Position numbers and translations under genes: made by a program
Notes under the pieces: generated by a model
Told to the model about the DNA's origin: nothing
The model's input: only the letters and a program-made list of their open reading frames with translations
Databases searched by the model: none
Assembly (NCBI RefSeq): GCF_032362555.1
Contig: NC_083509.1
Location: 11,369,001-11,433,000 of the forward strand
Direction of reading: 5' to 3'
Length of the DNA: 64,000 bases
Origin: Amyelois transitella
Taxonomy: Eukaryota; Arthropoda; Insecta; Lepidoptera; Pyralidae
Part shown: one piece after another, positions 8,009 through 63,583 of the stretch
Layout: each line of letters opens with the position of its first letter
Numbering within the stretch: the first letter of the stretch is position 1

Positions 8009-9910
8009 TCATAAAAAGGGAACGCCCCTGATCGCGGACGTGGAGGGCGCGGGCTCCTTCCCCAGGCCGGTGCGTTGCTTCACAGTCTGAATGAACTCCA
8101 AAACGGCCATATAAATAAACTTGTACTGCGCCTCGTTTTGCACCATACCCGATCTCTGATCCCGCACCATTTGCACAGTGCGGTGTATATCGATCTCGCA
8201 GTCGAAACCCTCCTTCCTTATTTGGTCCAGAATCATATCAATAACAATAAAAGTGCCAGTCCTGCCTATGCCTGCGGAGCAGTGCACGCAAACCACGGCC
8301 TGCGCCGGCGGCTGCGGCCCGGTCATTATCTGCTGCAGCCTACTGTTTACCACCAGCAGGATGTTCAACACGCGACCTGGCTCCGACGGGACCCCGTGGT
8401 CGGGCCAAGCCGTAAAATGAAAATGGTATATAGTTCTTTTCGCATTAGGCTCGTCTGTCTTCGTCACCACGAAACGTCTCAATGTGTAGTCCTGCGTTGA
8501 TGATTCTGATTCGTTGAATATCGCATATTTGTTCAACACCTCCGTTTTGTTCAGATCGGGCCAGTAACGTTCGCATTTGACTTTTCCACGCTCGATTTCC
8601 TTTGTCGTCATTATTATTATGCGGACGTCCTCCTGCCATATCATAGACCAGAATTGGTAAATGGTCGTAGAGAGACAGCCCTGTGTTGCTATATAGGTTT
8701 TGTTGTAAACGTTTTCGGCAACGAGGCTTTCGACCTTGGTGGCCGTCTTGGGTATCGTGGTGTTCACGTAATTGGGGTTGGCGCGTAACACGCTCGGCTC
8801 GAACGGAGGCAGGGAGGGCTTGTGCACTCCATTGCCGTAGCCTTTCGTGCTCTCTTCGGTGATCACCACGCTCGTATGGTTTGGAGAAGACTTGCCTTTA
8901 TTTTTAGAGGGCGTGCCGTCCCTGCTAGGCGGTGAGCCGTTCTCATTAGCCCCGTTAATGGGATCTTGCGAATCTAAACTTCCATCAATACTATCGCATC
9001 GAATGTAATTCGCGTTTATATAATCAGAACCCGGAGGTGCATCAGCCGGTATATCTTTGAGGACAACTCTGGTGTGGTCAAATGGTATAATGTTCTTGTA
9101 TCTATTTTTCCTGATATTTTCTGGTTTCGATCCCTCCATTCTGTCGAATTGGAAGTTCTCCATCATTTGTAGCGTCTCAAACTCTTCCCAGAATCCTTGT
9201 TTGTACGCCATGCTTTCAATGGGTCCTTCGGTTTCCTTTAGGAGTTGTTTTACTCTGGTGTGGAAGTGTCGTACTTGTATTCTTGTGGCGTTGAACGGTT
9301 GGATGAGTCTTAAAACTTCTCCTGAGGTTTCTACCATGGGGAAGTTTCTGTAGTGCTCTATGAGACTGACGAGGTCGTCGAACTGCTTCCCACCACCGAC
9401 GTCGTACTTGCTGTCTTGTCGGCGTACGATGACATGGGTCACGCGATCCCTGGTCCGCACAGATAGAACGAAATCGCCGGGTTGCCGTTGCGACTCGCGG
9501 ACGAGAAATGATCCGTTCTTTCCGTTTTCGAGCATAATTTTCTCTGCTTCTTTTGCGGTGAGCTGTCCGTGGTACCACCGCTCCGTCGTGGGGTCGGCAC
9601 AATTTAAAGGGGTTTTCAGTCTAATAACACTTCCGTTCTTTTCTCGCAGTTGTCCCTGATTGTCCATGTAGTATTGTACGAGTTCGGAGAGCGTTGCAAA
9701 TTTCTCTCCTCCATAAAGGTCGAGGAATTCTCCATTGTTTTGTATCTTGATGTGGGTGACTTCGTCCCCGCGGCGCACCGACAGTGTGAAGTCTCCCTTG
9801 TTGCTCATACTGGGCCTCGCGAGGAAGTACCCGTCCCGCCCGCACTCCATCAGAAGTTTCTCTGCGTCCACTCCGGTCAACAAGGGGTGGAACCATCTTC
9901 GGGTGATCAT
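8009..9910 (-). CDS. csw: Corkscrew/SHP2-type non-receptor protein tyrosine phosphatase
   Basis: A single uninterrupted 633-residue frame. N-SH2 at about 6-102 has arginine R32 in FLARPS. C-SH2 at about 112-205 has R138 in FLVRES. The phosphatase domain spans about 236-612, with KNRY at 269-271, WPD aspartate D504, the catalytic loop HCSAGIGRT with C544 and R550, and Q-loop QNEAQ at 591-595. The N-SH2 residues at the autoinhibitory interface (E76, A72) are kept. A poorly conserved stretch at about 304-403, rich in S, P, G and N, splits the phosphatase domain, as in Drosophila Corkscrew. Known role: the phosphatase transduces receptor tyrosine kinase signals to Ras/MAPK, with SH2 release by phosphotyrosine ligands. 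The C-terminal tail is only about 20 residues, without the tyrosines of SHP2. The start is well supported because MITRRWFHP aligns with the family N-terminus. Confidence 0.96.
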
Positions 9911-12910
9911 CTTACACTAACAAAAAGCACCGATACTTACTATACTATGTCACTATCAGATTAATTTTCTTCTGTCCCGATTCTCAATGCTCCATACATC
10001 TTCTCCAATCATCTGGAAAGAGTAGAAGGAATCTCTTTATAACACAACTGCATGTGAAGCTGTTTTGACTATGAACTAATATTATTATGATGGTTGTGCT
10101 ATATTTGCTGTAAACAAGGTTGGAAATGCTTTATGAGAAACAACAGAATTGAGAAGTAATAAATCGACAATAGCCGTCAAACAATACAGTACCTATTGTT
10201 AGGTATCTGTATAGAGGCAATTAAATATTGTTATTTATTTGTAGTACTTGCAAATAGACAACTCAAGGACTTTTATGCTTCTACTGGTACTACACTGGAA
10301 ATTAAAAGGATCTTTTTATTGCTATGTTGAATTAATAAAAAAAAAAAAGTATGCTTTGCATTGTACCAATAATATTATATTAATTAGGTGGTGTGCCCAT
10401 TTAATCAAAATTATAAATTCAAATGATTTTTTCTTGACCTGGGTCTGGAAATTATATTGTTTTAGCTGGCTTTTATCGATTTAGTGTGTTGTTTTCTTTC
10501 TATTACATTTTAGGTAAAGATAATCTAGGATTCCTGTAGATCCTTGAATAAATGAATAACTTTAAATTGTTCATTAAAATCATAATTCAGTAAGGCATAA
10601 TAAATTTCAATAATACAATTAGTGGTCTTAAAACTTCACCCGTGATACATACATGCCTATAAAAACTGCAAAAAATGTATCTACATATGTGGCATGTGCA
10701 GATGAATTTGACAGGAGTTTAGATGATAGATGTATGTGTAATTTGTACCGAACTAAGGCATCAGAAGTAACTAAAAGTTGCTCGTTGTGGAAAAAATCTA
10801 AACTACGGACAACAGATACACATACTTTTTATAAAACTCATTGACCCAATCAAATGACCTAGAGATGTGAAATATTATATTATTGCCATGCACTTGGTAT
10901 TATATTGAATTGGGGGGAAAACTAATGTATTTCATTCAAAAACAGATGATCCACAAATTTTTAAATAGGACTTTTTATAGTAAGTGACAGTAAAAATTTT
11001 GCCACATTAATGCATGGCGTGTCCCAAATCCTGACTCAGGGCTTGGAACATGCTATGGGTTAAGTTTTGTTCGCATACACCCACTTGAAGCTGAAAGCTG
11101 AGAATGCAATCATGGATGCCAACTATGAGAGGAAAATTATTCCATGGTTAGTTTGCTTTTGTATGTTTTCACTACACTTTACAAAGTACTTACACAATTG
11201 TTTTCCTTTTAACTTGGGAAATGGAATAGTTTTTGTTTTTTGTAGAGATGTTACTATGAAAATTGTAAGAATGAATATTTTTCAAGAATACAATGAATCA
11301 GTCTTTCCATACAATTGTATACAATCTCTACGACAATAATATGTGATGATAGCCATGACTATAAGTACCTACATGAACTGAATACCCAATACCACAAAGA
11401 GATCATGATTTTACGCTCGCTTCACGACAAACAGTGAAACATTGTTGCTATTCTAATTATAGAATGATAAACTTACCTCATATAGACACCCGTGCGAGAT
11501 ACAGCACCCGCTATTCCCTTTTCAATAGGAATTTTATGGATCGCACTGCTGTTGCTATGCTGAGTTAAGATTTTTTTTGAAACTCGGTTTTCAAGGGCGT
11601 ATTCGCCAGTACACTAACACACATGTACATGAATCTAAATATTATAACCTGATAAAAATTATATGTCCAAGTAGCAAATAAACAAATTAAATGTTACACA
11701 AAACAATTTTTCACAAAAAGCTGAGAAAATGTCTAATATTTGTGGGTGCTCGCGATGTCTAATTTTACTTGCTCTGTTCTTCTTTCGCTTACATTGCCAT
11801 TGCCAGTTTACTGCCACTTGCGTTCTGTCATCGTGCCGATAGGATGGCAAGCAAAGTTTTTGACACATTCCGTTTCTAAACGTAACGTACTGTGAACGGA
11901 CTATCGACTACGACTCATGGACGTAATAATACTACGACTAGATATCCTTTCGTTGCTAGTAACGAATTATATGATAGGTAGGTACTATTTTTTACACATT
12001 TGGAAAAATCATTAAAAGTCTTACGAGTATCTTCTTATTTATCCAAATTGTATATAGTGATATACATTTTATTAACTAAAAAGACAGGTCAAACAGCTCC
12101 CGAAAAATTTAAACAAGAGTCCCTTCAAATTTGACCGTGTGGGCAGAAGTGTAGCGTCTGCCTTTTCTCTTATCTAACGAGCTTATACATATTAATTTTA
12201 TAAGCTCTTCTAAAGTGATCTATACATTACCATAAACTCTCCATCATCTTTAAAATATACAATTATTGAATGGCATCATCGAACTTCCGTTTTCTCATGG
12301 ATAAACTGAAAAGAGTAGGTACCTATCTACCATATTAGAATAGCGTATAGATACTTAATAGTTTCATTTAAGTTGGTCAGAGTGGAAAGACAGTAATTAA
12401 AAGCACTTTTATGTGCCATCGCCATCCCAGAACACCGTGCCGAGAGGTCTTTTGCGTCACTCTAAAGTGAAGAATGCAATTAGATATCTATACAATTTTG
12501 AGGCTACCTACAGACCGATTTAATTAATTTATTAACCCGAAACTAGTATGACGAAGAAACAGCGCGATTATCTACTAGTCGCATTTATTCTGTGGGCAAG
12601 AACGCATCTTTCCTTTTTTTTGCTTATAAGTCGATGCCAGGCGAAGACTATTTTTGAAATGCATTAATTTATTTTTCTCAGCTTTATTTTTTTTTTAATT
12701 AGATGCGAAGAGTCGATCTACTGAGAATGAAGGCGATCACGGTACGGCACTCTTCCGGCAAAGGAAAATAGGTTAGGGATCGCTTGCAAGGGTTGCTTCG
12801 AGTAAAACCTCAATGAATCAAATATATTAAAAAAAATTACGGCCGGCAAAGTAAAAACCTTAGTAATACATGTTTTAAGTTTATTCATTACAAAATAACC
12901 ATAACAATAT
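9911..12910. other. csw upstream region; candidate 5' non-coding exon near 11.48 kb
   Basis: On the minus strand a consensus donor (GTAAGTTT) occupies 11469-11476, with an exon candidate beginning at 11477 and running upward. The csw start codon lies directly after an AG (TTAGTGTAAG|ATG), so csw may have a 5' UTR intron of about 1.5 kb. This is inference. Short plus frames at 10653-10844 and 11067-11339 have no recognised domain. Nothing else is seen. Confidence 0.35.
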
Positions 12911-13459: not shown

Positions 13460-14053
13460 TTTAATAATATTGAAAAATCTTCTGAACTTTTCACATAAAC
13501 GTATTCAAAATTATTTTAAAATTTGTCAGTTATGATGTGACAGAATTGCAAACGTAAAATATTTGACTTGTTTAAAAAAGGAAAATATATTTTTTCGACT
13601 TGCGATCATAGCGAACCTCTTTATCTCTACGATAATAACTCCTTTTATTCTTACGCCACGGGGCTATTCACTATCTATGATTATGTATTTATTTTATATT
13701 ATTTATATTTATTTATTTACGCCAATAATACAACGGTGGTTGGTGTAACCATATCTTAAAGTATTTGGCAAGGAATTCTTATATAAAAAAATCTTGACAG
13801 TCCTCATTTCAAGTAAAAAGGATAAATAACAAGTATAAAATGTGCAAGAAATAAAGAAGTTATAGAAACAAACAAGTTGAAGAACATTATTTTCACAAAA
13901 TAACAAAAATGTTCTTATAATCGTTATGACATGATCGGGAACATTAACAAGGCATAAGTCTTCTCGGGTATCTCCTTTGATAATCCTAATGAGTCATATT
14001 TATTTAATATTTAAGTACAACTTAAAGTAATCTTACTCTTACTACTTACTCAC

Positions 14054-14105
14054 CTTCAGGACCATCCCATACTCTATGGTAGTATGTCTTAGCCTCAAAC
14101 TCGGT
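14054..14105 (-). other. Candidate minus-strand exon
   Basis: A 52-base block is flanked on the minus strand by a strong acceptor (T-rich tract then TTTTCAG) and a strong donor (GTGAGTAAGT). One frame reads TEFEAKTYYHRVWDGPE, which looks protein-like. It does not join the exon at 13268-13459 in a compatible phase through any good acceptor I found, so its gene partner is unresolved. Confidence 0.3.
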
Positions 14106-14247
14106 CTGAAAATAAAAAAAAATTAAGCTACTGGCAAAAGCGGGAAAATCATATATTGCGCCGGGGATAGGAAGGAACATTTCAAAGCACTCTTTTATTT
14201 TACAAAATATTTATACATAACACTAATCTCGTAAACATTAGACGAAA

Positions 14248-17200
14248 ATGCAGGCAATAGCAACTCCTATGACTCAGGTAATATTTCGTGCTATTTCAAC
14301 ATTATTTCAACATTAGTTATTATAATATGTACCTATGTGGAATATAGTGACGGTAGTTGATTATTTTACACCCAAGTCAAATTGTATACTATTTTTTTGC
14401 AGGCCATGAAAGAATGGACCAAAATATTTCCAAAAAATATGACTGAAAACTATACCAGCTCAGTAACATTTATGAAACAGCTTACAGTGGTGGCTATTAG
14501 CACAATAACATATTTGAAAAATTTTCCGGACGATAGTTACACGCTGGAACAGTTCGCTGGGCTAAAACTTAGAATTTTGAAGAAAAAGTGTAGGGATGAG
14601 TTTGCCGATTTTATCAGCACAGCTCTAACGCAAGCTTTTGAGGCCTTTGATAAAAAATATGTAAGTAGATCCATGCACAAGGCTAGTTTATGTCGCATGC
14701 GGGTAGTAATTTGGATCACGGATCAGCTCATTCGCTAGTTGTTTGAAAGAAATTGATATAATGCGTGATTTTATCTATATCTATACTAATATTATAAAGC
14801 TGAAGAGTTTGTTTTGTTTGTTTGTTTGTTTGTTTAAACGCGCTAATCTCAGAAACTACTGAAACGATTTGAATAATTCTTTCACTGTTAGATAGTCTAT
14901 TTATCGAGGAAGGCTATAGGCTACATTTTATCCCAGATTTCCTACGGGAAACGTCAACAATGCAGGTGAAAGTTGAATGAGTCGGCCATCTGCGAGCTTT
15001 CCACGCGAACGCTGCGCAAACCAACAAAGATATAGTAAAACAATGTACTAAAGATGTGAAGTACTCATTTTTTGCCACAAAAAAGTCCGCGAGAGCATAT
15101 ATCTATCTCTTAAGGTTTACTTACAATAACCACTTTTATGTTAATTTTTTAAGATTATTTTTTCATTATAAACATAAGTTATTTTGAAACCAATTTTCTT
15201 TAATTCAGTATTAATCCTTATCAAAATAAATATGTTTATTACTTTCGGCTTTTCATGTAGACTAAAATTGCCATTTACAGTATATAAATCAGACGAATAG
15301 GTTTTGAGATATAGTCGTTATAAGCATTTTGCAGCGAAACATTTAATACGGCGAACCAGCGTTCTTCCTAATACGCCTGACCGCCTGCAAAAATAAATAT
15401 GATGCCCAAAATAAGTATTTCACGCGGACGAAGTCGCGGGCACAGCTAGTGTATGTATAAAATCTGTATGTATCTCCCTCCGAATATCGATTTATATTCG
15501 GGCACCTTTTCGTTTTCTAGAAAAAAAAAAACTACACCTAACACCATTACTTCCAGTTACACCAACTAGCGCTATGTTTCTACAAAGACGAATTCACAAC
15601 GGAAAATCTGTTAGAGTATTACATCTTCGAGTATTCTTACAACAAAGATGGGGTGTCCATGAGTGTCCATTCAAAAACTCGGGACAGCGAGCGGAAAACA
15701 AGCAAATTCACTTTCGATAATGTCCGAGACAGGACTGTCCAGTTGATTCGAGCTTGCATGGTCATCATGCAGACAACGCAGCATAATTCCATTGAGTTTT
15801 GCGACGTCAGCTTAAGGCTCTATTATAATGAAGGTATGGATAAAATTAACATACATACATACATATGGTCACGTCTATATCCCTTGGGGGTAGACAGAGC
15901 CAACAGTCTTGAAAAGACTGAATGGCCACGTTCAGCTATTTGGCTTAACGATAGAATTGAGATTCAACTAGTGACAGGTTGCTAGCCCATCGCCTAAAAA
16001 AGAATCCAAATTTGTAAGCCTCTATGTAGTATTTATCTATTATAAAATATAGTATCGTTGAGTTAGTATCTCTTAACACAAGTCTCGAACTTACTTCGAG
16101 GCTAACTCAATCTGTGTGATTTGTCCCGTATACCTATTTATATTTATTTATATTTTGCGTATAACAGTTGAACCAAAAAATCGTGTTACGATCGCTATGC
16201 TCCACCTTTATCAGTTGCTTACAATGTGTAGATTTTCTCTCACGATGTTTTCCCTGATCGAAGCATCTGTTAGCATTCATGTACAGTCGCTTGTACAAAA
16301 ACTATAACATAAAATAAAGATAGGTATGTTTCTAACTAGTTCTACATTCATTCATGTTTTTTAATGTAGACAATGTGCATTCGTCCACGATTTAGATTTA
16401 AGAGATCTATATTTGTAAATTGACGTCCGATGAAAATGCTGCAGTGTAGTTTGTTCCGCCGCTCCTTCTACACATGCGCTTCGGAAGCGGTAGCAGTTAT
16501 AATTAGATTTAAGTGATGCGACGTCAATAAGTGATACCTTGTATCCAATTTTGAAAATAATTAACGTCCGATGAAAATGTTACAGTGTAGTTTGTTCCGC
16601 CGCTCCTTCTACACATGCGCTCTGGAAGCGGTAGTAGTTATAATTAGATTTAAGTGATGCGACGTCAATAAGTGATACCTTGTAACCAATTTCAAAAAAA
16701 ACATTCTATTCTCGTAGACGCGCCTCCAGGTTACAACGTATCAGGGTTCACAGCCGCGGGTCCATCGGAAGACCACATCGGCGAGACCATAGAGCAGGCC
16801 ATAAAGCTTGGCAGCGTGGAGACGCCGTACCATAGAGTGATGGCCAGCTCCTTTGTGAGAGACAGCCTGCTTGCCAGCCACGAGGCTATCGTGAGTTGTT
16901 CACCCGATACACTGAATATGTCACGTCTGTATCCCTTACGAGGTAGACAGACTCGAAGACCACGTTCAGCTGTTAGCCTTACTGATAGTATTAAGATTAA
17001 TATAAAGTGACAGATTAGAAAAAGAAGAATCCCAAGTTTATAAGCCTATCCCTTAGTCGCCTTTTACGACATCCATGGGAAAGAGATAGAGTGGTCCTAT
17101 TCTTCTTTCTATTTGTGCCGTGTGGTTCTCGGAAGACCACATCGGCGAGACCATAGAGCAGGCCATAAAGCTCGGCAGCGTAGAGACGCCGTACCAAAAA

Positions 17201-20200
17201 GTGATGGCCAGCTCCTTTATGAGAGACAGCCTGCTTGCCAGCCACGAGGCTATCGTGAGTTGTTCACCCGATACACTGAATATGTCACGTCTGTATCCCT
17301 TACGAGGTAGACAGACTCGAAGACTACGTTCAGCTGTTAGCCTTACTGATAGTATTAAGATTAATATATAAAGTGACAAGTTAGAAAAAGAAGAATCCCA
17401 AGTTTATAAGCCTATCCCTTAGTCGCCTTTTACGACATCCATGGGAAAGAGATGTAGTGGTCCTATTCTTCTTTCTATTGGTGCCGTGTGGTTCTTGGAA
17501 GACCACATCGGCGAGACCATAAAGCAGACCATAAAGCTAGGCAGCGTAGAGACGCCGTACCAAAGAGTGATGGCCAGCTCCTACATGAGAGACAGCCTGC
17601 TTGCCAGCCACGAGGCTATCGTGAGTGGTTCACCCGATAAACTGAATATGTCACGTCTGCATCCCTTACGAGGTAGACAGACTCGAAGACCACGTTCAGC
17701 TGTTTGTCTTACTGATAGTATTAAGATTAATATAAAGTGACAGGTTAGAAAAAGAAGAATCCCAAGTTTATAAGCCTATCCCTTAGTCGCCTTTTACGAC
17801 ATCCATGAGAAAGAGTTAGAGTGGTCCTATTCTTCTCTCTATTGGTGCCGTGTGGTTCTCGGAAGATTACATCGGCGAGACCATAGAGCAGACCATAAAG
17901 CTCGGCAGCGTAAAGACGCCGTACCATAGAGTGATGGCCAGCTCCTACATGAGAGACAGCCTGCTTGCCAGCCACGAGGCTATCGTGAGTGGTTCACCCG
18001 ATAAACTGAATATGTCACGTCTGCATCCCTTACGAGGTAGACAGACTCGAAGACCACGTTCAGCTAAGTGGAAGAATAGAGATTTAGACAGTGTCAGGTT
18101 GCTGGCCCATCGCCCAAGAGTAAGAAACTTTTCCTTTGATAGACCTTTACAATTTACCCGAGAAGAGAAGCAGCTGCGTTAGGTATTGTAAATACTTAAC
18201 ATAACATATAATCACGTCTATATCCCTTGCGGGGCAGATAGAGTCAACAGTCTTGAAAATACTGAAAGGCCACGTTCAGCTGTAATTAGCTGTTTGCCTT
18301 ACTGATAGAATTTAGATTCATATAAAGTGACAGGTTGCTAGCCCGTCGCCCTTAAAGAAGAATCCCAAGTTTATAAGCCTATCCCTTAGTCGCCTTTTAC
18401 GACATCCATGGGAAAGAGAGGTCCTATTCTTCTTTCTATTTGTGCCGAGAACCACACGGCACCAATAGAAAACAATAGAAATGGTTTGTCATCGTCTTGC
18501 ATCATAATTACTCGATATTTATTCGACGCACACGCAAGTTGCAAATTTGTATGTTTTGTTTTCAGCCATCCCAGAACGCACCAATGATGACGCAAAATGA
18601 CGATGACGATTTTGAAGGTATGTACCTCCTTTATTATCATTTAGTTTTTTGTTAAATTAACGAAATTCGGGATATTCCTGTATTGACTTCATAGATATTC
18701 AGACAGACAGCCCTCTGGTGATAGTAAGACTTGCTTGCATCCTCACCACTCTGGAAAGCACCCAAAGTGCGCCTTTAACCTAGTGTGGCGAAATCTATAC
18801 GCCACTAGTCACAAAAATAAAAAATGGAATCACGCTACGCTATCAGTCATAAACAGAGAAAAACCTAAATCGCGCAAGCAAAGATTTCACGGATTGGAGC
18901 TATATATACAACCTCCGACACAACATCGTCGAAGCCGCGGTTCCCCAGGCATCACACCTAGCCTGGCGGAAGATCTTCCCTTTGGTGGCGGTCGAGCCGA
19001 ATCATCGCTCCCGCTACACTTGGATCCTGGATGGGGTGAATCAGGTTTTAACACAAAGCTTCTACCATTTGACCTCCACAACCTTTGCAGGGGAACCCAA
19101 CCCGTATTGTATCATCGATCTTCCAGTTGCCTGAATGTGCAGGTTTCCTCACGCTTCCTCTTAACGTAAAAGCATCGGTTAGCACTAAAACTAACGTACG
19201 TAACCCAGAAAAGAGGTATTGGTGTATGGCTAAATTTAGATTTGAACCTGTGCCTTCACGAACATTGGTCACCTTATCGATTTGACTACACACGCTCTGT
19301 CTTCCCAGAAATTTGTGTCCTGTTACAATTGTTCTCATTGATGGCCTCTGTGGCGCAGCGGTAGTAGGCTTGTCTGTAATACAGTAGGTCCCAAGTTCGA
19401 ACCTCGGCTGTATGTTGATTAAGACACAATTAAGTGTTTGTTGTAAAATATAGTATCGTTGATACTATAAAATTAGTATCTCGTAACGTGCCGTGTGGTT
19501 CCCGGCACCAATAAAAAAGAAGAATAGGACTACTCTATCCCTTTCCCACGAATGTCGTAAACGGCGACTAAGCGATAGGCTTATAAAGTTGGGATTCTTC
19601 TTATAGGCGATGGGCTAGCAACCTGTCATTATTTGAATCACAATTCTATAATCAAGCCAAAAAGCTGAACGTGGCTTACCAGTCTTTTCAAGACTGTCGG
19701 CTCTGTCTAACCCGCAAGGGATATAGACATGACTATATGTTTATATGTAGTATCTCGGTAACAAAAGTTTCGAACTAACTTCGAGGCTTACTCGATCTGC
19801 GTAATTTCAACTGTACATAAAAAAAATTGTGAGCCTATAGCCATCAGCTTTTTATTATTAGAGTTCTTATAAATTTTGAAATCATATTACACCTGGTCAG
19901 CAAGTTGGCTTAGAATTTAAATTCTTCATTAGAAGAGGCGAACGCTTGGAGCGAGAGCCGGGTACGATGTCCGTGCAACAAACGAGACGAGAACGTGTTG
20001 ATGCTGACGTGCTTGTAAGTAATTTTAACATACAATCTCGTTTTCATCCTTCATAATAATAAAACATTGTTATCTGGGGACACGGCAGTGCCCCCGCCAA
20101 GTCGAGCAAAAAAAAGCGGCACGGCCGAGAAAAGAATGGTACATTCGAGAAAAGAATGGTACAAGCAAGAAGCAATTCAGGCTATTTTCGACCCCCCTAT

Positions 20201-45100: not shown

Positions 45101-48100
45101 TAGGTAACACAAGGGATGTTATATACATATGTACATATAAATAGTACCGCTACATTTTACCTTTCGGCATGCAATTACTGAAGTTCAGATTTTATGTACT
45201 TGGTGAAACCATGTTATAAATCTAAACTTACTAATATTATAAAGCTGAAGTTTGTTTTTTTGAACGCGCTAATCTCAGAAACTACTGGTTCGAATTGAAA
45301 AATTATATTTGCGTTGAATAAATCATTTATCGAGACAGGCTTTAGGCTGTATAACATCACGCTGCGACTACTAAGGAGCAAAGAAATAAAGGAAAATGTG
45401 AAAAAAAAAAACGGGGAAAATTATTCATCCTAAAGGGGCTTCAATGATGCCCAAAATAACTATTTCACGGGGACGAAGTCGCGGGCACAGCTATTTTATA
45501 ATAAAATCAATTCACGCATCTGTCCCTCTACATGTTTATATATATTTAAAACAACACGACGTATTTTGATGCAGTTTTTTTAATAGATAAAGTGATTCAA
45601 GAGGAAGGTTTATACATATGTATTAATCCTGCCCGTGCGAAGCCGGGGCAGATCGCAAGCACATATATATAATTACGTCTTTATCCCAAACGGGATAAAC
45701 AGAGCCAACAGTCTCGAAAAGTTTAAAAGGTCACGTTCAGCTGTATGGCTTAGTGATGACACCTGTTTATTTTTTCTGATTTTATTTTTCCTTTGGTGCG
45801 ATAAAGAGTTTATCTATTGAATTCAGAAAATGACAGGTTGCTAGCCCATCTCAATTTTAATATCACTGAGAAAATGACAGGTTGCTAGCCCATCTCAATT
45901 TTAATATCACTGAGAAAATGACAGGTTGCTAGCCCATCTCAATTTTAATATCATTGACCTAAATTGTGTTTTACACCTTACTACCATTATTTTGATGTTA
46001 ACAATAAAAAAACAGACTGTTTATGCCAAAATAAATAAAAACTAAAACATCGTCAAACACATTTTTTTACCAGGAATCATCTCCGGCTCGTCGTCGAGCC
46101 ACCCGTCCGGTTTGACAGCGTTGGGGTCCACAATCTGCGCGGGCGCATCTTCATCCCAGTCCTCGGGCTTGGTCGCTGTTGGGTCTACAATCTGTAACAA
46201 ATATTTGTTTTTACATGAAAAGCTTTGAAAGTAGTTCGTCGGCACGACGCGTCGCGACCAATATGTGTCTGTAATTTTATTTTTTAAACTGTTTTTATTA
46301 TTGAAGACCTATAATTGGCTCTAAAATGTTAATTTTAAAAGCCAATGATAGTAAAACTTGCTGTTGGTCTTCCAAATATATCTATACTAATATTATAAAG
46401 CTGAAGAGTTTGTTTTGTTTGTTTGTTTGTTTGTTTGTTTAAACGCGCTAATCTCAGAAACTACTGAACCGATTTGAATAATTCTTTCACTGTTAGATAG
46501 TCTATTTATCGAGGAAGGCTATAGGCTACATTTTATCCCGGATTTCCTTCGGGAAACGTCAACAATGCAGGTGAAAGTTGAATGAGTCGGCCATCTGCGA
46601 GCTTTCCACGCGAACGCTGCGCAAACCAACAAAGATATAGTAAAACAATGTACTAAAGATGTGAAGTACTCATTTTTTGCCACAAAAAAGTCCGCGAGAG
46701 CATATATCTATCTCTTAAGATTTACTTACAATAACCACTTCTATGTTCATTTTTTAAGATTATTTTTTCATTATAAACATAAGTTATTTTGAAACCAATT
46801 TTCTTTAATTCAGTATTAATCCTTATCCAAATAAATATGTTTATTACTTTCGGCTTTTCATGTAGACTAAAATTGCCATTTACAGTATATAAATCAGACG
46901 AATAGGTTTTGAGATATAGTCGTTATAAGCAATTTGCAGCGAAACATTTAATACGGCGAACCAGCGTTCCTTCTAATACGCGTGACCGCCTGACCGAGCT
47001 TAGCAGCTATAATTGATAAAGCCGAGGAGGATGTTTGCAAAAATAAATATGATGCCCAAAATAACTTTTCCACGCGGACGAAGTCGCGGGCACAGCTAGT
47101 AAAATAATAAAAATAATAAAAAAAAAACGTACGCGAGATTTTTCAAGATGGATTAAAGAATAGAATAGAATATTTATTACTAGGGTTTTGTTTTTAACTA
47201 GGGTTTACAAAAGTTATAAAAACAAAACATCTTTCCTTATTATATTATACACAAGTCACTTAAGTCAATTAATTAAATCTTAATTAAATGATGAAAATAA
47301 AATGTCAATTTGTTAAAATAAATAAAAAATTTAAAAAAAAAAAAAATTAATATTTGTCAATATTTGATTTCAAGAAAACAAAATAATTATTTATGAACAA
47401 ATTTAAATTTTTATCTAAAAAACTACAATTGACTTAAAACCGACCTTCTCCCTCTCGTCCCAGTCATCAGGCTTCTTATCATCAGGGTCGTCGATCTCCT
47501 CCGGCGGGTTGACGGGCGGGGTGAAGTCCTCCAGCAGCGAGCCAGCGTTCACCTCCTTGTTGTCCACCATGATGGAGAACGTGTTGTCCGGACGAACTAT
47601 GAGCGTGTACAGATGCGGCTCTTTGTCCTTGTAAATGTCATCTAGGCGTTGGCTGTAAGAAGAATAATATGTATATGTCAGGTCAGTCTTTGCTCCACAA
47701 TATAAGTTAGCTTTTATTTATTTATTCTTTATTGTAACAATTACAATTTGTAAAGTACAATACTTTTACATACATATGGTCATGTCTATATCCCTTGCGG
47801 GGTAGACAGAGCCGACAGTCTTGAAAAGACTTAATGGCCACGTTTACCTATTTGGCTTAATGATAGAATTGAGATTCAAATAATGACAGGTTGCTAGCAC
47901 ATCGCCTTAAAAAAGAAAAGTTTGTAAGCCTTTCCCTTAGTCGCCTTTTACGACATCCATGGGAAATAAAAGTTAGCTCTTAAATTTAAGAAGAAGAGTA
48001 TTTAATGTTAGTCTTAGTTTAGTTGCCGGCAGTTTAGAATAGGATCTCTCCATATCCAGGAACCACACGGCAATTTAGAAATTAATCCTGACACAATCTT

Positions 48101-58400: not shown

Positions 58401-61400
58401 GCGAAATAATTTGTTTACGTATTTTAATGTAATGTTTTATTTTCATAGGTTTCAGTACAGGCATATTAAAATAATAATTTGTGAATTATTTATTTACTTT
58501 ACAATTATATATAATTACAGTTATGATAGAAGTTAAAATATATGTTTATGGTTCTCAAAGTATCACTATTCACTCATCTCAACAGAGTCGCTTTCGTCTG
58601 AATCAGAGTCATTAACATTAATAATAAATTCATTATCCATATCAAAGTATTGCGAATATTGTTTTTCTGTGTCTTCAACATGCCGACACGTGTTTGCCCA
58701 CATTGTACGATCAATCATTTCAAGTCGTTTATTTATTAGTGCCATAATGGATGTTAAATTTTGAGCAACATTTTTACTAGCGACGTAGTTTTTTAATATC
58801 CCCCATATTTTTTCTATGGGATTAAGTTCCGGGTGGTAAGGGGGTAATCGTAGAATTTCAAACCCTTTCGATTCAACTAGTTCATCGATAACAAATCTTT
58901 TGAATTTATCTTTGTTTTTCAAAATTAAATCGTAAAGTTGTATTTTTTTCATCGTTTCGTCAAACGGAATATTTTTTTCGGCAAGCCATGTTTGCATTTC
59001 ATTCTTGTTTGAGTTCGAGTTAGGTGCTTTTTCTAGTAAAGCATTGTGGTAAGAAGCGTTATCCACAACGATGACAGAGTTTTCTGGGAGATTGGGCAGC
59101 AATTGTGTGCTAAGCCACTTTTTATAATTATTCAGGTTCATGTTGTCGTGATAATCTCCACTTGTTGAATTTGCTTTATACACTAAGCTAGCATTTGGGA
59201 CAAATCCTTCACACCCACCAGCGTGGACAATAATGACCCGCAAACCTTTAGATATTTTTTTTGTACTGGTGACACTCCTTTCGCTAGTTTCCAGCACATG
59301 TTCTGAATATGTGTTGTGTGAACGTAACTTTCATCCGTGAAAACGACATATCGGCCATCATCACGGTAATTTTTTAATCGCCTTAAATATTGGAACCGCA
59401 GCATTTGTATGTCGTGCTTTTCGACTAGAGCTTTACGGTTGTCATCTATTTTTGACCACTCGTAGCCTGATTCCTTCAAAATAGTGCGCAGTGTTTCTAT
59501 ACACCCAGTAAAGCCAATTCTTTCTATTAATATCTGTTTAAGCTTTCTTAATGTTGGTACTTCATTAAATTCTGTATGGAATGAAGCTATTGTTCTTCGA
59601 AGCACACCTATATCAAAATCATCAAGCTTTGACTTAGGACGCGCTCTTTTTGGTTTTGAGGGAGATTTAAAAATTTTCGGCGATACATCCTTTGATGTTC
59701 CAGCTTGTTTTTCTTCTTTTAAAATTCGCGTAATCGTGGATTCACTAACACCAACGGCTTGGGCAGTTCGCCACCTAGCATCAGTAAGTTTTTCCACTCC
59801 ATTTTCCGCTTCAAATTTCATTCGGTGGTATACTTTAGCAATAATTTCTTTTGCCTGTAAAAAAATCAATAGCATTTATTTTTCAATTCAGTATACAGCA
59901 AAAAAAAAAACATTCAGTCTCATATAATTTGGTAAAATAAATAAAAAAGTCTGACGTAACTTTACATGTTAAAAATCAAATAAGTTTTTTTATATTTTAT
60001 TTACCTGGCTTCGAAGATGTTTTTTTGTCGACATGCTGACGGTACTTTTGAGATCGAACGATGCGTGCTCCTACGTTTGAGCCTAACCGGCAAATGAACG
60101 ATTGATGTTTAGGTGTATTGCGTCCATATTTGATATTTGCTTGTGTGCGTAAATACGAAGGTGGGGCGCGTCACTTCAGCTTAGACAATCTCTACATATA
60201 TCGACCAAAAATCGCTTGTGATAAGTGGTAATTGAATAAACTTTGTGAATAATACATTTTTTTGACAAAGTTTATTGCTAATAACTAGGTACCTAGATGT
60301 TACATTTTGAATTTGTAAATAAAATTGTTATTATTATATTTTCAATTGGCTGAGCACGTTAAATTGTATTAATTTTACCCTCCAACTAGTGCATCTGATG
60401 CGCGCCATCTATTTTAATCAATGAATAACATTAAAAAGCACCTCGATGTGCTGTTTTGGCGGGCAGCATCTAGTACCCAAGATATTAACTAGATGGCGTT
60501 TTATACTTGTAAAATTTGACAGTTGCCATTTACTCTCTTCCTCTTCCGAATATACATCAGCACGCAGTACACATTCTTTTATTTAAATTCCAAATTAAAC
60601 AGTCCAGTAGAAGCGTAGACAGGATGTTAATTTTCTTTGTGTAAAAATTAATTATTATTTACAGATTTCCTACATAAAAAACTAGACGACTACATAGAGA
60701 AGAATATGCCTAAAGTGAAAGTATTAAGGCTGAAATCGCGGAGTGGGTTGATAACGGCGCGACTGGCCGGCGCTGAAAAGGCTACTGGAGACGTTTTGAT
60801 ATTCCTGGACTCTCATACTGAGGCTAACGTGAATTGGCTTCCGCCTTTGTTAGGTGGGTCTCTATTGTGTCTTCTCTTCCTGTTTGGAGTCCCGGTTGCA
60901 TCCTCACTATTCGGGAGAGGAGCCCGGGGTAAGCCCTTGACCATGGATCCTGGATTGGGTGAGTCAGGTTTTTACATGAACCGACTGCCATCTGAGCTCC
61001 GCAACCTTTGCAGGGGAACCTAAGCCGTATCAGATCATGATTACACAACCTGTTGCCTAAATGTGCAGGTTTCCTCACGATGTTTTTTCTTACCGTAAGA
61101 GCATCGGTTAGTATTAAAACTAATGTACATTATTTCTAAAATAGTGGTACATGGCCGAGTACAATCATCCGACTTTCGATTTGAACCAGTGCCCTTCTGC
61201 GCATCACGCATTTTAATCGGACACCTTACGGTTTCGACCACCGACGCCGGGAACCACACGGCACTTGCTTTTTACCATTATTCTGTTTTCTGTAGTGATT
61301 TACTAACTTTGCGACTGTACTTCCCACAGAGCCGATAGCGTTAAACTATCGAACGGTTGTGTGCCCGTTCATAGACGTGATAGCTTACGACACGTTGGAG

Positions 61401-63583
61401 TACCGCGCCCAGGACGAGGGAGCCCGGGGCGCGTTCGACTGGCAGTTCTTCTACAAGCGGTTGCCGGTATTGCCCAGGGATGAGGAGAACATGCCGGAGC
61501 CTTTCGAGTGAGTGGTCTACTTCATTTGGTGTCGTGGTGTCGAAGACTCGTTGGAGTGCCGCGCCCAGGGCGAGGGAGCCCGGGGCGCGTTCGACTGGCA
61601 GTTCTTCTACAAGCGGCTGCCAGTGTTACCCAGGGACGAGGAGAACATGCCGGAGCCTTTCGAGTGAGTGGTCTACTTCATTTGGTGTCGTGGTGTCGAA
61701 GACTCGTTGGAGTGCCGCGCCCAGGGCGAGGGAGCCCGGGGCGCGTTCGACTGGCAGTTCTTCTACAAGCGGTTGCCAGTATTGCCCAGGGACGAGGAGA
61801 ACATGCCGGAGCCTTTCGAGTGAGTGGTCTACTTCATTTGGTGTCGTGGTGTCGAAGACTCGTTGGAGTGCCGCGCCCAGGGCGAGGGAGCCCGGGGCGC
61901 GTTCGACTGGCAGTTCTTCTACAAGCGGCTGCCAGTGTTACCCAGGGACGAGGAGAACATGCCGGAGCCTTTCGAGTGAGTGGTCTACTTCATTTGGTGT
62001 CGTGGTGTCGAAGACACGTTGGAGTGCCGCGCCCAGGGCGAGGGAGCCCGGGGCGCGTTCGACTGGCAGTTCTTCTACAAGCGGCTGCCAGTATTGCCCA
62101 GGGACGAGGAGAACATGCCGGAGCCTTTCGAGTGAGTGGTCTACTTCATTTGGTGTCGTGGTGTCGTTCAGCATTTGAAATAGGTCCACTACTATCTGTT
62201 TGGATGTCGTAAAAGTGAAGGCGTGAAGGCGTGATTGTATGTATGTGTGTGTCGTATACGGGTTCAGATCGTATCTTTCGTATGGATGTCGTAAAAGGCA
62301 ATGTAAAACGCAAGGGATAAAGGCGTGATTATTATGTATGTGTGTATCCTATACGGGTTCAGACTCCCCTGCAAATAAGATGCCACTTAGACGATAAAAA
62401 TATTCATTTAAGATTAATAACTATTGTTTTTGGTTTTAAATTTAGATTATTTCTGGTTTTAGGAGCCCTGTAATGGCGGGAGGGTTATTCGCGATATCGC
62501 GCGCCTTCTTCAACGAGTTGGGGGGGTACGACCCTGGGCTGGATATTTGGGGGGGAGAGCAGTACGAACTTAGCTTTAAGGTATATTTACAGTCTAAATG
62601 AATGAATGAATGAAAACATAATTTTCTTTTGAAAAGAATACACATCTCTGACAGTAAGCTTCAAGATTTGTGTTCCTATAGTAAAAGTGGTAGGGAGTTT
62701 ATGTGTCTATCAATGAACTATATTTTTATTTCCCTCTAAAAAGATTACAAGTCTCTAACAAAGTCCTAGTGGCTTCTTTCTTATCCGTTATCAGCGTGGC
62801 GTTTGCTCAAGGGATGAGTAATTAAATAAATCGAGACGATCTTGCATGAAGATTACCATGGAAGAAAAGAATTATGAATAAGGATGAAGTGAAGGAATTA
62901 TGCAAATGATAAAATAAATGCCTGGTTGCAATTTCTTTGCATTTTTTAATATCATGAAAAAATAAAATAGGCTTTGGGTTCATAGTCTAAAACTTAATAT
63001 CTAGTCGGTAAAAACACAGAATAGCGCCATCTAGCGCAATTCAATGAAACTACAACGCGGCGATAACACGTTACATCTCCACTCAATATAAGCCTTGAGT
63101 AATTTACTAGAAATAGATCGTGGCAATTGGATAGATGTAGTCTATGCCTACCCCTCCGGGAAATAGGCAATGTATGTATTCTTTTAATGTTAGTGTGTAG
63201 CCGTGTGGTTCCCGCTACCATTACATAAAAGAATAGGACCACTCCATCTCTTTCCCATGGATGTCGTAAAAGGCGACTAAGGGATAGGTTTATAAACTTA
63301 GGATTCCTCTTTTAGGCGATGGGCTAGCAACCTGTCACTACTTGAATCTCAGTTCTATCATTAAGCCAAATAGCTGAACGTGGCCATTCAGTCTTTTCAA
63401 GACTGTTGGCTCTGTCTACCCCGCAAGGGATATAGACGTGACCATATGTATGTATGTATGTTATTGTGTTAGATATGGCAGTGCGGCGGTCGGATGTTGG
63501 ACGCGCCGTGTTCCCGCGTTGGACACATTTACCGCAAATTCGCGCCGTTCCCCAACCCCAACCATGGGGATTTCGTTGGCAAG
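55416..63583 (+). CDS. Polypeptide N-acetylgalactosaminyltransferase (3' end beyond window)
   Basis: Eight exons join in frame: 55416-55607, 56174-56225, 56930-57065, 57388-57563, 60665-60853, 61330-61507, 62463-62580 and 63473-63583. The N-terminus is type II membrane: a short basic cytosolic part ([11 protein letters not shown]), then [15 protein letters not shown]. The GT-A catalytic domain follows: [40 protein letters not shown], the metal motif DSH in [30 protein letters not shown], and the acceptor-site block [10 protein letters not shown] with [12 protein letters not shown] conserved histidine sits in [11 protein letters not shown]. Known role: it adds the first GalNAc of mucin-type O-glycans to Ser/Thr in the Golgi. 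The lectin (ricin-B) domain must lie past 64000. I cannot name the paralogue. Confidence 0.95.
57101..57378. repeat. Repeat A (minus) and repeat D (plus) before GalNAc-transferase exon 4
   Basis: 57101-57300 is a minus family A copy. 57305-57378 is the 3' end of family D with its (TCTAT)n tail, which runs to within 9 bases of the exon 4 acceptor at 57387 and forms its pyrimidine-rich tract. Confidence 0.75.
57607..57702 (+). repeat. Repeat family D fragment
   Basis: GATGAAAATGCTGCGGTGTA and CCGCTTCTTCTGCACTGACG; intron 4 of the GalNAc-transferase. Confidence 0.55.
58071..60192 (-). mobile_element. Tc1/mariner-superfamily element, DD82E (Sailor-like)
   Basis: Perfect 32-bp terminal inverted repeats start GAGATTGTCTAAGCTGAAGT (58071 inward and 60192 inward) and are flanked by TA on both sides (58069-58070, 60193-60194). 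That gives a 2122-bp element inside intron 4 of the GalNAc-transferase, on the opposite strand. It carries one transposase gene. Identical inverted repeats and few lesions suggest recent insertion. Confidence 0.92.
58566..60034 (-). pseudogene. DD82E transposase with one frameshift
   Basis: Exon 60005-60034 ([10 protein letters not shown]) splices in phase 0 to 59854 downward ([20 protein letters not shown]). A helix-turn-helix region ([20 protein letters not shown]) precedes the DDE core. The first aspartate is in [13 protein letters not shown], the second in [11 protein letters not shown], and the glutamate in [11 protein letters not shown]. 82 residues separate the second D from E. The frame breaks at an eight-T run (59255-59262, A8 on the coding strand) between GVSPVQKK and [15 protein letters not shown]. 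Otherwise the gene looks intact to its stop at 58566-58568. One base change in that run decides whether this copy is active; it could also be a sequencing error. Confidence 0.85.
60855..61255 (+). repeat. Interspersed repeat family G copy
   Basis: Begins at the exon 5 donor region and matches 19020-19340 and 33675-33900 (CTTTGCAGGGGAACC, AGAGCATCGGTTAG). The end (ACACCTTACGGTTTCGACCA) resembles the tRNA-like pieces at 29791 and 31920 in reverse. Confidence 0.6.
61392..62132 (+). repeat. 156-bp tandem array of GalNAc-transferase exon 6 (five units)
   Basis: The last 116 or so bases of exon 6 (ACGTTGGAGTACCGC to the donor) and the first 38-40 bases of its intron recur four more times. GTGAGT donors lie at 61508, 61664, 61820, 61976 and 62132, exactly 156 apart. 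The extra copies share CGCCCAGGGCGAGG where the true exon has CGCCCAGGACGAGG. Units 2 and 4 carry the same CGGCTGCCAGTGTTACCC variant, so the array probably grew by two-unit steps. Long open frames across the array result from the period being a multiple of three. Confidence 0.92.
62840..63172. repeat. Repeat family C pieces
   Basis: TTATGAATAAGGATGAAGTGA near 62875 and TGCCTACCCCTCCGGGAAAT near 63150 are reverse family C words; intron 7 of the GalNAc-transferase. Confidence 0.5.
63197..63463 (-). repeat. Repeat family A copy before GalNAc-transferase exon 8
   Basis: Well-conserved full-length minus copy. Its (TATG)n start ends only about 10 bases before the exon 8 acceptor (TTATTGTGTTAG). 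Confidence 0.75.

Follow-up and report, generated by a model that had tools for sequence, protein, structure and literature searches.

Duplication of part of an exon together with a neighbouring repeat is a known phenomenon, as is the exonization of short interspersed nuclear elements (SINEs). Tandem exon duplications with docker/selector pairing are described for Dscam exon 6, 14-3-3zeta and Mhc, and right-docker exon clusters have been described as well (PMC6071210). In the silkworm Bombyx mori, the lepidopteran HORMAD1 homologue is named HOP1 and its HORMA domain covers residues 28-234 (PMC10151401). The window analysed here is a stretch of 64,000 nt from Amyelois transitella (NC_083509.1, positions 11,369,001 to 11,433,000), and all coordinates refer to positions in it. 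It carries a HORMAD/HOP1-like gene in which the end of exon 4 is repeated in tandem with a SINE-like repeat inside intron 4. The array is best explained, in all likelihood, as a neutral product of repeat-associated tandem duplication. The exon and repeat parts vary alike, and neither the true acceptor nor the initial 47 nt of exon 4 is present in the copies. The amino acid changes are near the neutral share and the open frames survive a neutral simulation. In addition, joining exon 3 to a copy lowers the HORMA score, the tip of the repeat is very common, and the window holds a second array of open partial-exon copies.

The last 119 nt of exon 4 (16772-16890) recur at three further sites in intron 4, with spacings of 364, 366 and 364 nt between the segments. 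An earlier note on this DNA had described four such copies 364-366 bp apart, each with a GTGAGT donor and an open frame. This description holds, since all four segments are open in the exon 4 frame, have equal length and phase, and are followed by GTGAGT. The extent and junctions that it gave stand only in part. The copies are joined to the repeat, but the stretch common to exon 4 and the copies is 126 nt, beginning at 16765 (TCGGAAG), and the junction ahead of the third copy is CTTGGAAG rather than CTCGGAAG. The copies are thus partial relative to the 173-nt exon 4, and unit 4 has only 81 nt left behind its exon part. A DNA search of the genome (327 Mb, 33 contigs) with exon 4 returned the exon itself and three places with 96, 94 and 93% identity, all in the array; no exon 4 fragment was found outside the array in this search (4/4 candidates scored). 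The array is far beyond chance, and its anatomy, junctions, frames, divergence and uniqueness in the genome are direct observations. No retrocopy of a spliced mRNA was found, as 7/7 candidates of the protein search lay at the HORMAD locus and the 4/4 exon 4 DNA candidates lay in the array.

The gene itself is, judging by its predicted protein, a HORMA-domain meiotic axis protein (HORMAD/HOP1), as the earlier note had named it. The spliced protein matches the HORMA domain (PF02301) with 126 bits against a cut-off of 24, over profile positions 1-209 of 209, and it is the inclusion of exon 4 that takes the match to position 209. The best PDB match is human HORMAD1 (8j69, E 5.1e-19), and the KKYL spanning the exon 2-3 join is part of the match to this protein. 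The six PDB sequences at E <=0.01 are HORMAD1, HTP-1, HTP-2, HIM-3, HIM-3/HTP-3 and one "HORMA domain-containing protein". Directly upstream of exon 4, intron 3 contains another tandem repeat (16418-16692, 2 x 141 bp, 94%). With the array downstream, separate tandem duplications therefore flank HORMAD exon 4.

Divergence between array units is 4.2-7.6% in the exon part and 0-5.0% in the remainder, with unit-specific changes and a 2-nt indel. The earlier note had proposed that substitutions no different from those in the adjoining SINE part would speak against alternative exons, and no difference was found: among units 1-3, 9 of 119 exon columns are variable compared with 14 of 238 behind the exon (Fisher p=0.65, few changes). 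The copies do differ at several amino acids while keeping length and frame, as had been claimed. Over the four copies 12 exon columns are variable, sorted by hand from the alignment, and 8 of these alter an amino acid (E/K, A/T, H/Q, R/K, F/Y and V/M among the differences), compared with a neutral share of 0.74 (p=0.53). In a neutral simulation on the tree with 14 hand-set changes, all three copies remained open in 75% of the runs. At a butterfly mutation rate of 2.9e-9, repeat divergences of 2.5-5.0% would take about 4-9 million generations to build up. Homogenisation would make this age a minimum, so the array should also be present in related species.

What splicing to a copy would entail was worked out from the sequence. 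Exon 3 leaves an incomplete codon, and each copy opens with the last two bases of it. A join of exon 3 to a copy would therefore keep the frame and remove 18 HORMA residues; the earlier note had likewise given a phase equal to that of the real exon 4 acceptor and a loss of about 18 residues. The candidate acceptor is an AAG at the repeat-exon junction, which is in the right phase and follows a pyrimidine-rich stretch. Acceptors generally prefer C or T at position -3. The 6/6 acceptors read here, four in the HORMAD gene and two in a GALNT-like gene in the same window, have one of the two. When exons 2-3 are joined to a copy, the HORMA match scores 92.8, 91.1 and 91.3 bits and ends at profile position 169 of 209, compared with 126 bits and position 209 for the true join; the drop combines the deletion with the substitutions of the copies. 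The stretch that would be lost, DAPPGYNVSGFTAAGPSE, aligns with TPPDYQPPGF in HORMAD1, DAPSNFRIDGF in HTP-1 and KAPKDYTPEGY in HIM-3. The safety belt of HTP-1 is I227-S248, and the beta6-beta8' loop is placed within the belt (PMC13381836). With an ungapped extension of the HORMAD alignment, the belt would fall within the segment that was copied, and the beta6-beta8' loop would hold the residues that are lost. Exon 4 is asymmetric, and skipping it (exon 3 to exon 5) or adding copy 2 or copy 3 meets a stop.

The remainder of each array unit is a SINE-like repeat. It had been called a SINE, which is correct insofar as it is a short, dispersed, high-copy element that ends in a palindromic tip. The ordinary tip, TCTATTNGTGCCGNGAACCACACGGCAC, has 28,164 genome matches at <=2 mismatches, or about one per 11.6 kb. 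No Rfam match to a tRNA-, 5S- or 7SL-derived head was obtained at E <=1 in 14000-20100, and the repeat is therefore named only SINE-like. The single Rfam match in that interval, mir-2774 (18923-18988), lies outside the array and scores 21.3 bits, below the gathering score of 51. A name for the repeat was sought with one piece of the tip, which was not found in the papers searched. Some genomic tips have a second, longer inverted arm. Inside the array the tip loop runs in the opposite direction. The flipped-tip query has 809 genome matches, which is not a measure of flipping because the eight loci returned comprise three at the HORMAD locus, four ordinary tips on the other strand and one that is unclear. 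A 34-base piece of the element occurs at 495 genome places at <=2 mismatches, and the three exact matches are in unit 1, in the downstream element of intron 4 and on another contig. These exact matches suggest a local origin of the repeat in the array. Of 35 genome loci, 15 lie at the HORMAD gene; in the other 20 (about 61 kb, located near repeat copies and therefore not random) no tandem array of period 60-500 was found. Elsewhere in the window, a tandem repeat of 3 x 44 bp (45825-45957) includes TGACAGGTTGCTAGCCCATC, which is part of the SINE-like element of the array.

The order of events that we infer begins with a SINE-like element located in intron 4 directly behind exon 4. The tip of the element ends in TCGG, which coincides with a TCGG within exon 4 (CCATCGGAAG). 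A rearrangement would have joined the tip to these same four bases, with the microhomology as the probable cause, and duplicated the exon 4 end together with its donor and the element once in tandem. The number may have grown to about four units by subsequent unequal crossing-over, and the units would then have diverged neutrally. Transcripts would be expected to use the true exon 4, with the copies removed along with intron 4 and so not spliced in. Occasional use of a copy would result in a HORMA domain without the 18 residues before the safety belt, or in a premature stop.

Table 1. Features of the HORMAD gene, its exon 4 array and the predicted pairing sites (window positions)
Feature	Position	Strand	Basis
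HORMAD exon 2, HORMA domain start	14403..14660	+	acceptor GCAG, donor GTAAGT; HORMA match; protein-search match
HORMAD exon 3, phase 1 end (GAA G, then gt)	15557..15833	+	sequence; protein-search match
HORMAD true exon 4, 173 nt	16718..16890	+	acceptor TCGTAG, donor GTGAGT; protein-search match
Whole tandem array, period 364, 3.6 units, 95% matches	16765..18065	+	Tandem Repeats Finder (TRF)
SINE-like repeat piece, unit 1 (5' edge approximate); tip loop opposite to ordinary genomic tip	16916..17132	+	alignment, genome tip search
Selector-like site after exon 4: 18-nt Watson-Crick run to 18445-18462	17115..17132	+	complementarity
Copy 2 of exon 4 end, open frame, GTGAGT donor intact	17136..17254	+	sequence search, alignment
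Selector-like site after copy 2: 24-nt run to 18448-18471	17472..17495	+	complementarity
Copy 3 of exon 4 end, open frame, GTGAGT donor intact	17502..17620	+	sequence search, alignment
Selector-like site after copy 3: 25-nt run to 18445-18469	17838..17862	+	complementarity
Copy 4 of exon 4 end, open frame, GTGAGT donor intact	17866..17984	+	sequence search, alignment
SINE-like element in intron 4 outside array, array's orientation (edges approximate)	18204..18463	+	sequence, 34-base piece search
Docker-like site, ordinary tip of downstream element	18442..18471	+	complementarity, folding
HORMAD exon 5	18566..18617	+	sequence; frame kept across exon 4-5 join

The inverted tips in the array are complementary to the ordinary tip of the downstream element (Table 1). 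The predicted duplex energies with this docker-like site are -54.2 kcal/mol for the selector-like site after exon 4, -58.3 kcal/mol after copy 2 and -56.9 kcal/mol after copy 3. As a control, the exon 4 selector was paired with other 61-nt stretches of 14400-20000. Among the best eight pairings the other array units come first (-44.6, -40.4 and -40.0), followed by an element in the opposite orientation at 19463 (-39.4) and a stretch at 18975 (-36.6). The array units pair with each other because the tip is palindromic, and the docker alone forms a hairpin of -17 kcal/mol. Two folds prefer different partners for the docker: the selector after copy 2 in the minimum-energy fold of 16700-18620, and the one after copy 3 in the ensemble of 16891-18570 (0.80 versus 0.01 and 0.02 for the other two, and 0.0 for the docker's own hairpin). 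Over 1.7 kb such folds are rough, and they take no account of folding during transcription. Since the tip is palindromic and extremely common, the pairing is probably accidental.

A second array of the same kind lies at 61389-62166, in the gene that we take from its sequence to be GALNT-like; it has a Glyco_transf_7C match of 28.5 bits. Here an exon end with its GTGAGT donor is present in five copies in all (period 156, 97% matches, TRF), with open frames and intact donors. Compared with the true exon, the four extra copies are changed at 5-8 of 118 positions and have the replacements Y to C and D to G in common. Behind the donor, 33 nt show no difference among the five copies. The only genome match of this array is the array itself. 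The gaps between its copies are 33-38 nt, which is too short for introns there, and leave room for one copy to replace the true exon. This array is a parallel and not a clean control; it shows only that the window contains two cases of partial-exon copies with open frames and donors.

Several results weigh against a neutral origin, or against a step of it. The proportion of non-synonymous differences (pN) is below that of synonymous differences (pS) in 6/6 pairwise comparisons, each on 2-4 synonymous differences. The changes are few and the power is low, and weak selection or constraint would be missed. All 12 variable exon columns fall within the first 84 of the 119 nt (p=0.015, post hoc), which leaves the donors and the ends of the exon copies without variation. 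The step of local origin is weakened by the downstream element, which has 84% identity over the matched part compared with up to 87% for other genome copies. Finally, one docker with several selectors is the layout that a nascent exon cluster would need, and it matches the right-docker variant (PMC6071210).

Apart from neutral copies, the alternative that survives best is a poison exon, although it is improbable. A copy would sometimes be included after exon 4, and HORMAD output would be cut through nonsense-mediated decay, whether as noise or in a regulated way. A join of exon 4 to copy 2 or copy 3 encodes TTSARP and stops at the seventh codon, and the intact donors would permit it. This use depends on the same AAG acceptor as any other use of the copies, and pairing of the docker with the exon 4 selector would loop out all of them.

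The earlier note had offered recent neutral copies or nascent mutually exclusive exons, and the former are better supported. Under the latter, exon 3 would be joined either to exon 4 or to a copy, producing HORMAD isoforms with different safety belts, and tip pairing would help the choice. The fitting frame and the intact donors partly favour this reading, as do the asymmetric exon and the docker/selector-like layout, which the earlier note did not mention: a stop follows if copy 2 or 3 is included as well as exon 4, or if no version of the exon is included, and one docker faces three selectors. In the worm, substitutions in the belt set apart the functions of HTP-1 and HTP-2 (PMC13381836). 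The acceptor was not copied, however, and the AG in its place is a weak-looking AAG. Use of a copy would also remove the 18 residues ahead of the belt, and no signal of selection was detected. Mutually exclusive exons are therefore quite unlikely. Less likely still is the birth of a docker/selector cluster of swappable closure-motif-binding belts, in which the palindromic tip, inverted during the duplication, would have given a docker and three selectors at once and the asymmetric exon would bar double inclusion.

A role for the copies as templates in gene conversion of exon 4 is very doubtful. In its favour, none of the four copies differs from the others in the donor or in the last 35 nt of the exon part, but the chance probability of this clustering was obtained post hoc, ordinary homogenisation would have the same effect, and the repeat part of units 1-3 also has long invariant runs. 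An assembly artefact, with haplotypes stacked in tandem, has nothing in its favour beyond the repeat itself and is the least credible, because the differences between units, with their unit-specific changes and indel, are larger than expected between haplotypes.

Outside these two genes, the minus strand at 8009-9916 has an open frame of 635 aa that codes for two SH2 domains and a tyrosine phosphatase domain, presumably similar to corkscrew/SHP2. That the frame is uninterrupted could point to a retrocopy.

The neutral reading of the HORMAD array implies that a common repeat beside an exon can yield, apparently without selection, most parts of a mutually exclusive exon cluster. These parts are in-frame copies, donors, a frame barrier and competing RNA pairings; a clear acceptor is not among them. 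If the copies were spliced, the locus would show the birth of such a cluster, which is rarely seen, within a meiotic gene. We know of no isoform that uses the array. No equivalent case was found in the titles and abstract openings returned by searches on tandem exon duplication, lepidopteran repeats and exonization, and a search on HORMA domains with mutually exclusive exons listed one paper. The gene resembles Bombyx mori HOP1 in that both are lepidopteran HORMAD1 homologues with a HORMA domain, and an exon array goes unmentioned in the available part of that paper (PMC10151401). As in SINE exonization, a dispersed repeat beside the HORMAD exon has joined a tandem duplication and supplies a candidate acceptor. 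Unlike in SINE exonization, the candidate AG is at the repeat-exon junction, and its use is hypothetical. Compared with the docker/selector clusters of Dscam exon 6, 14-3-3zeta and Mhc, the HORMAD array differs in that it copies only the 3' part of the exon without the acceptor, has no detectable selection, and has the tips of a very common repeat as its pairing sites. It is like them in that the tandem exon copies come with intron parts, a single downstream site is complementary to sites after exon 4, copy 2 and copy 3, and the frame is lost when copy 2 or 3 is included along with exon 4.

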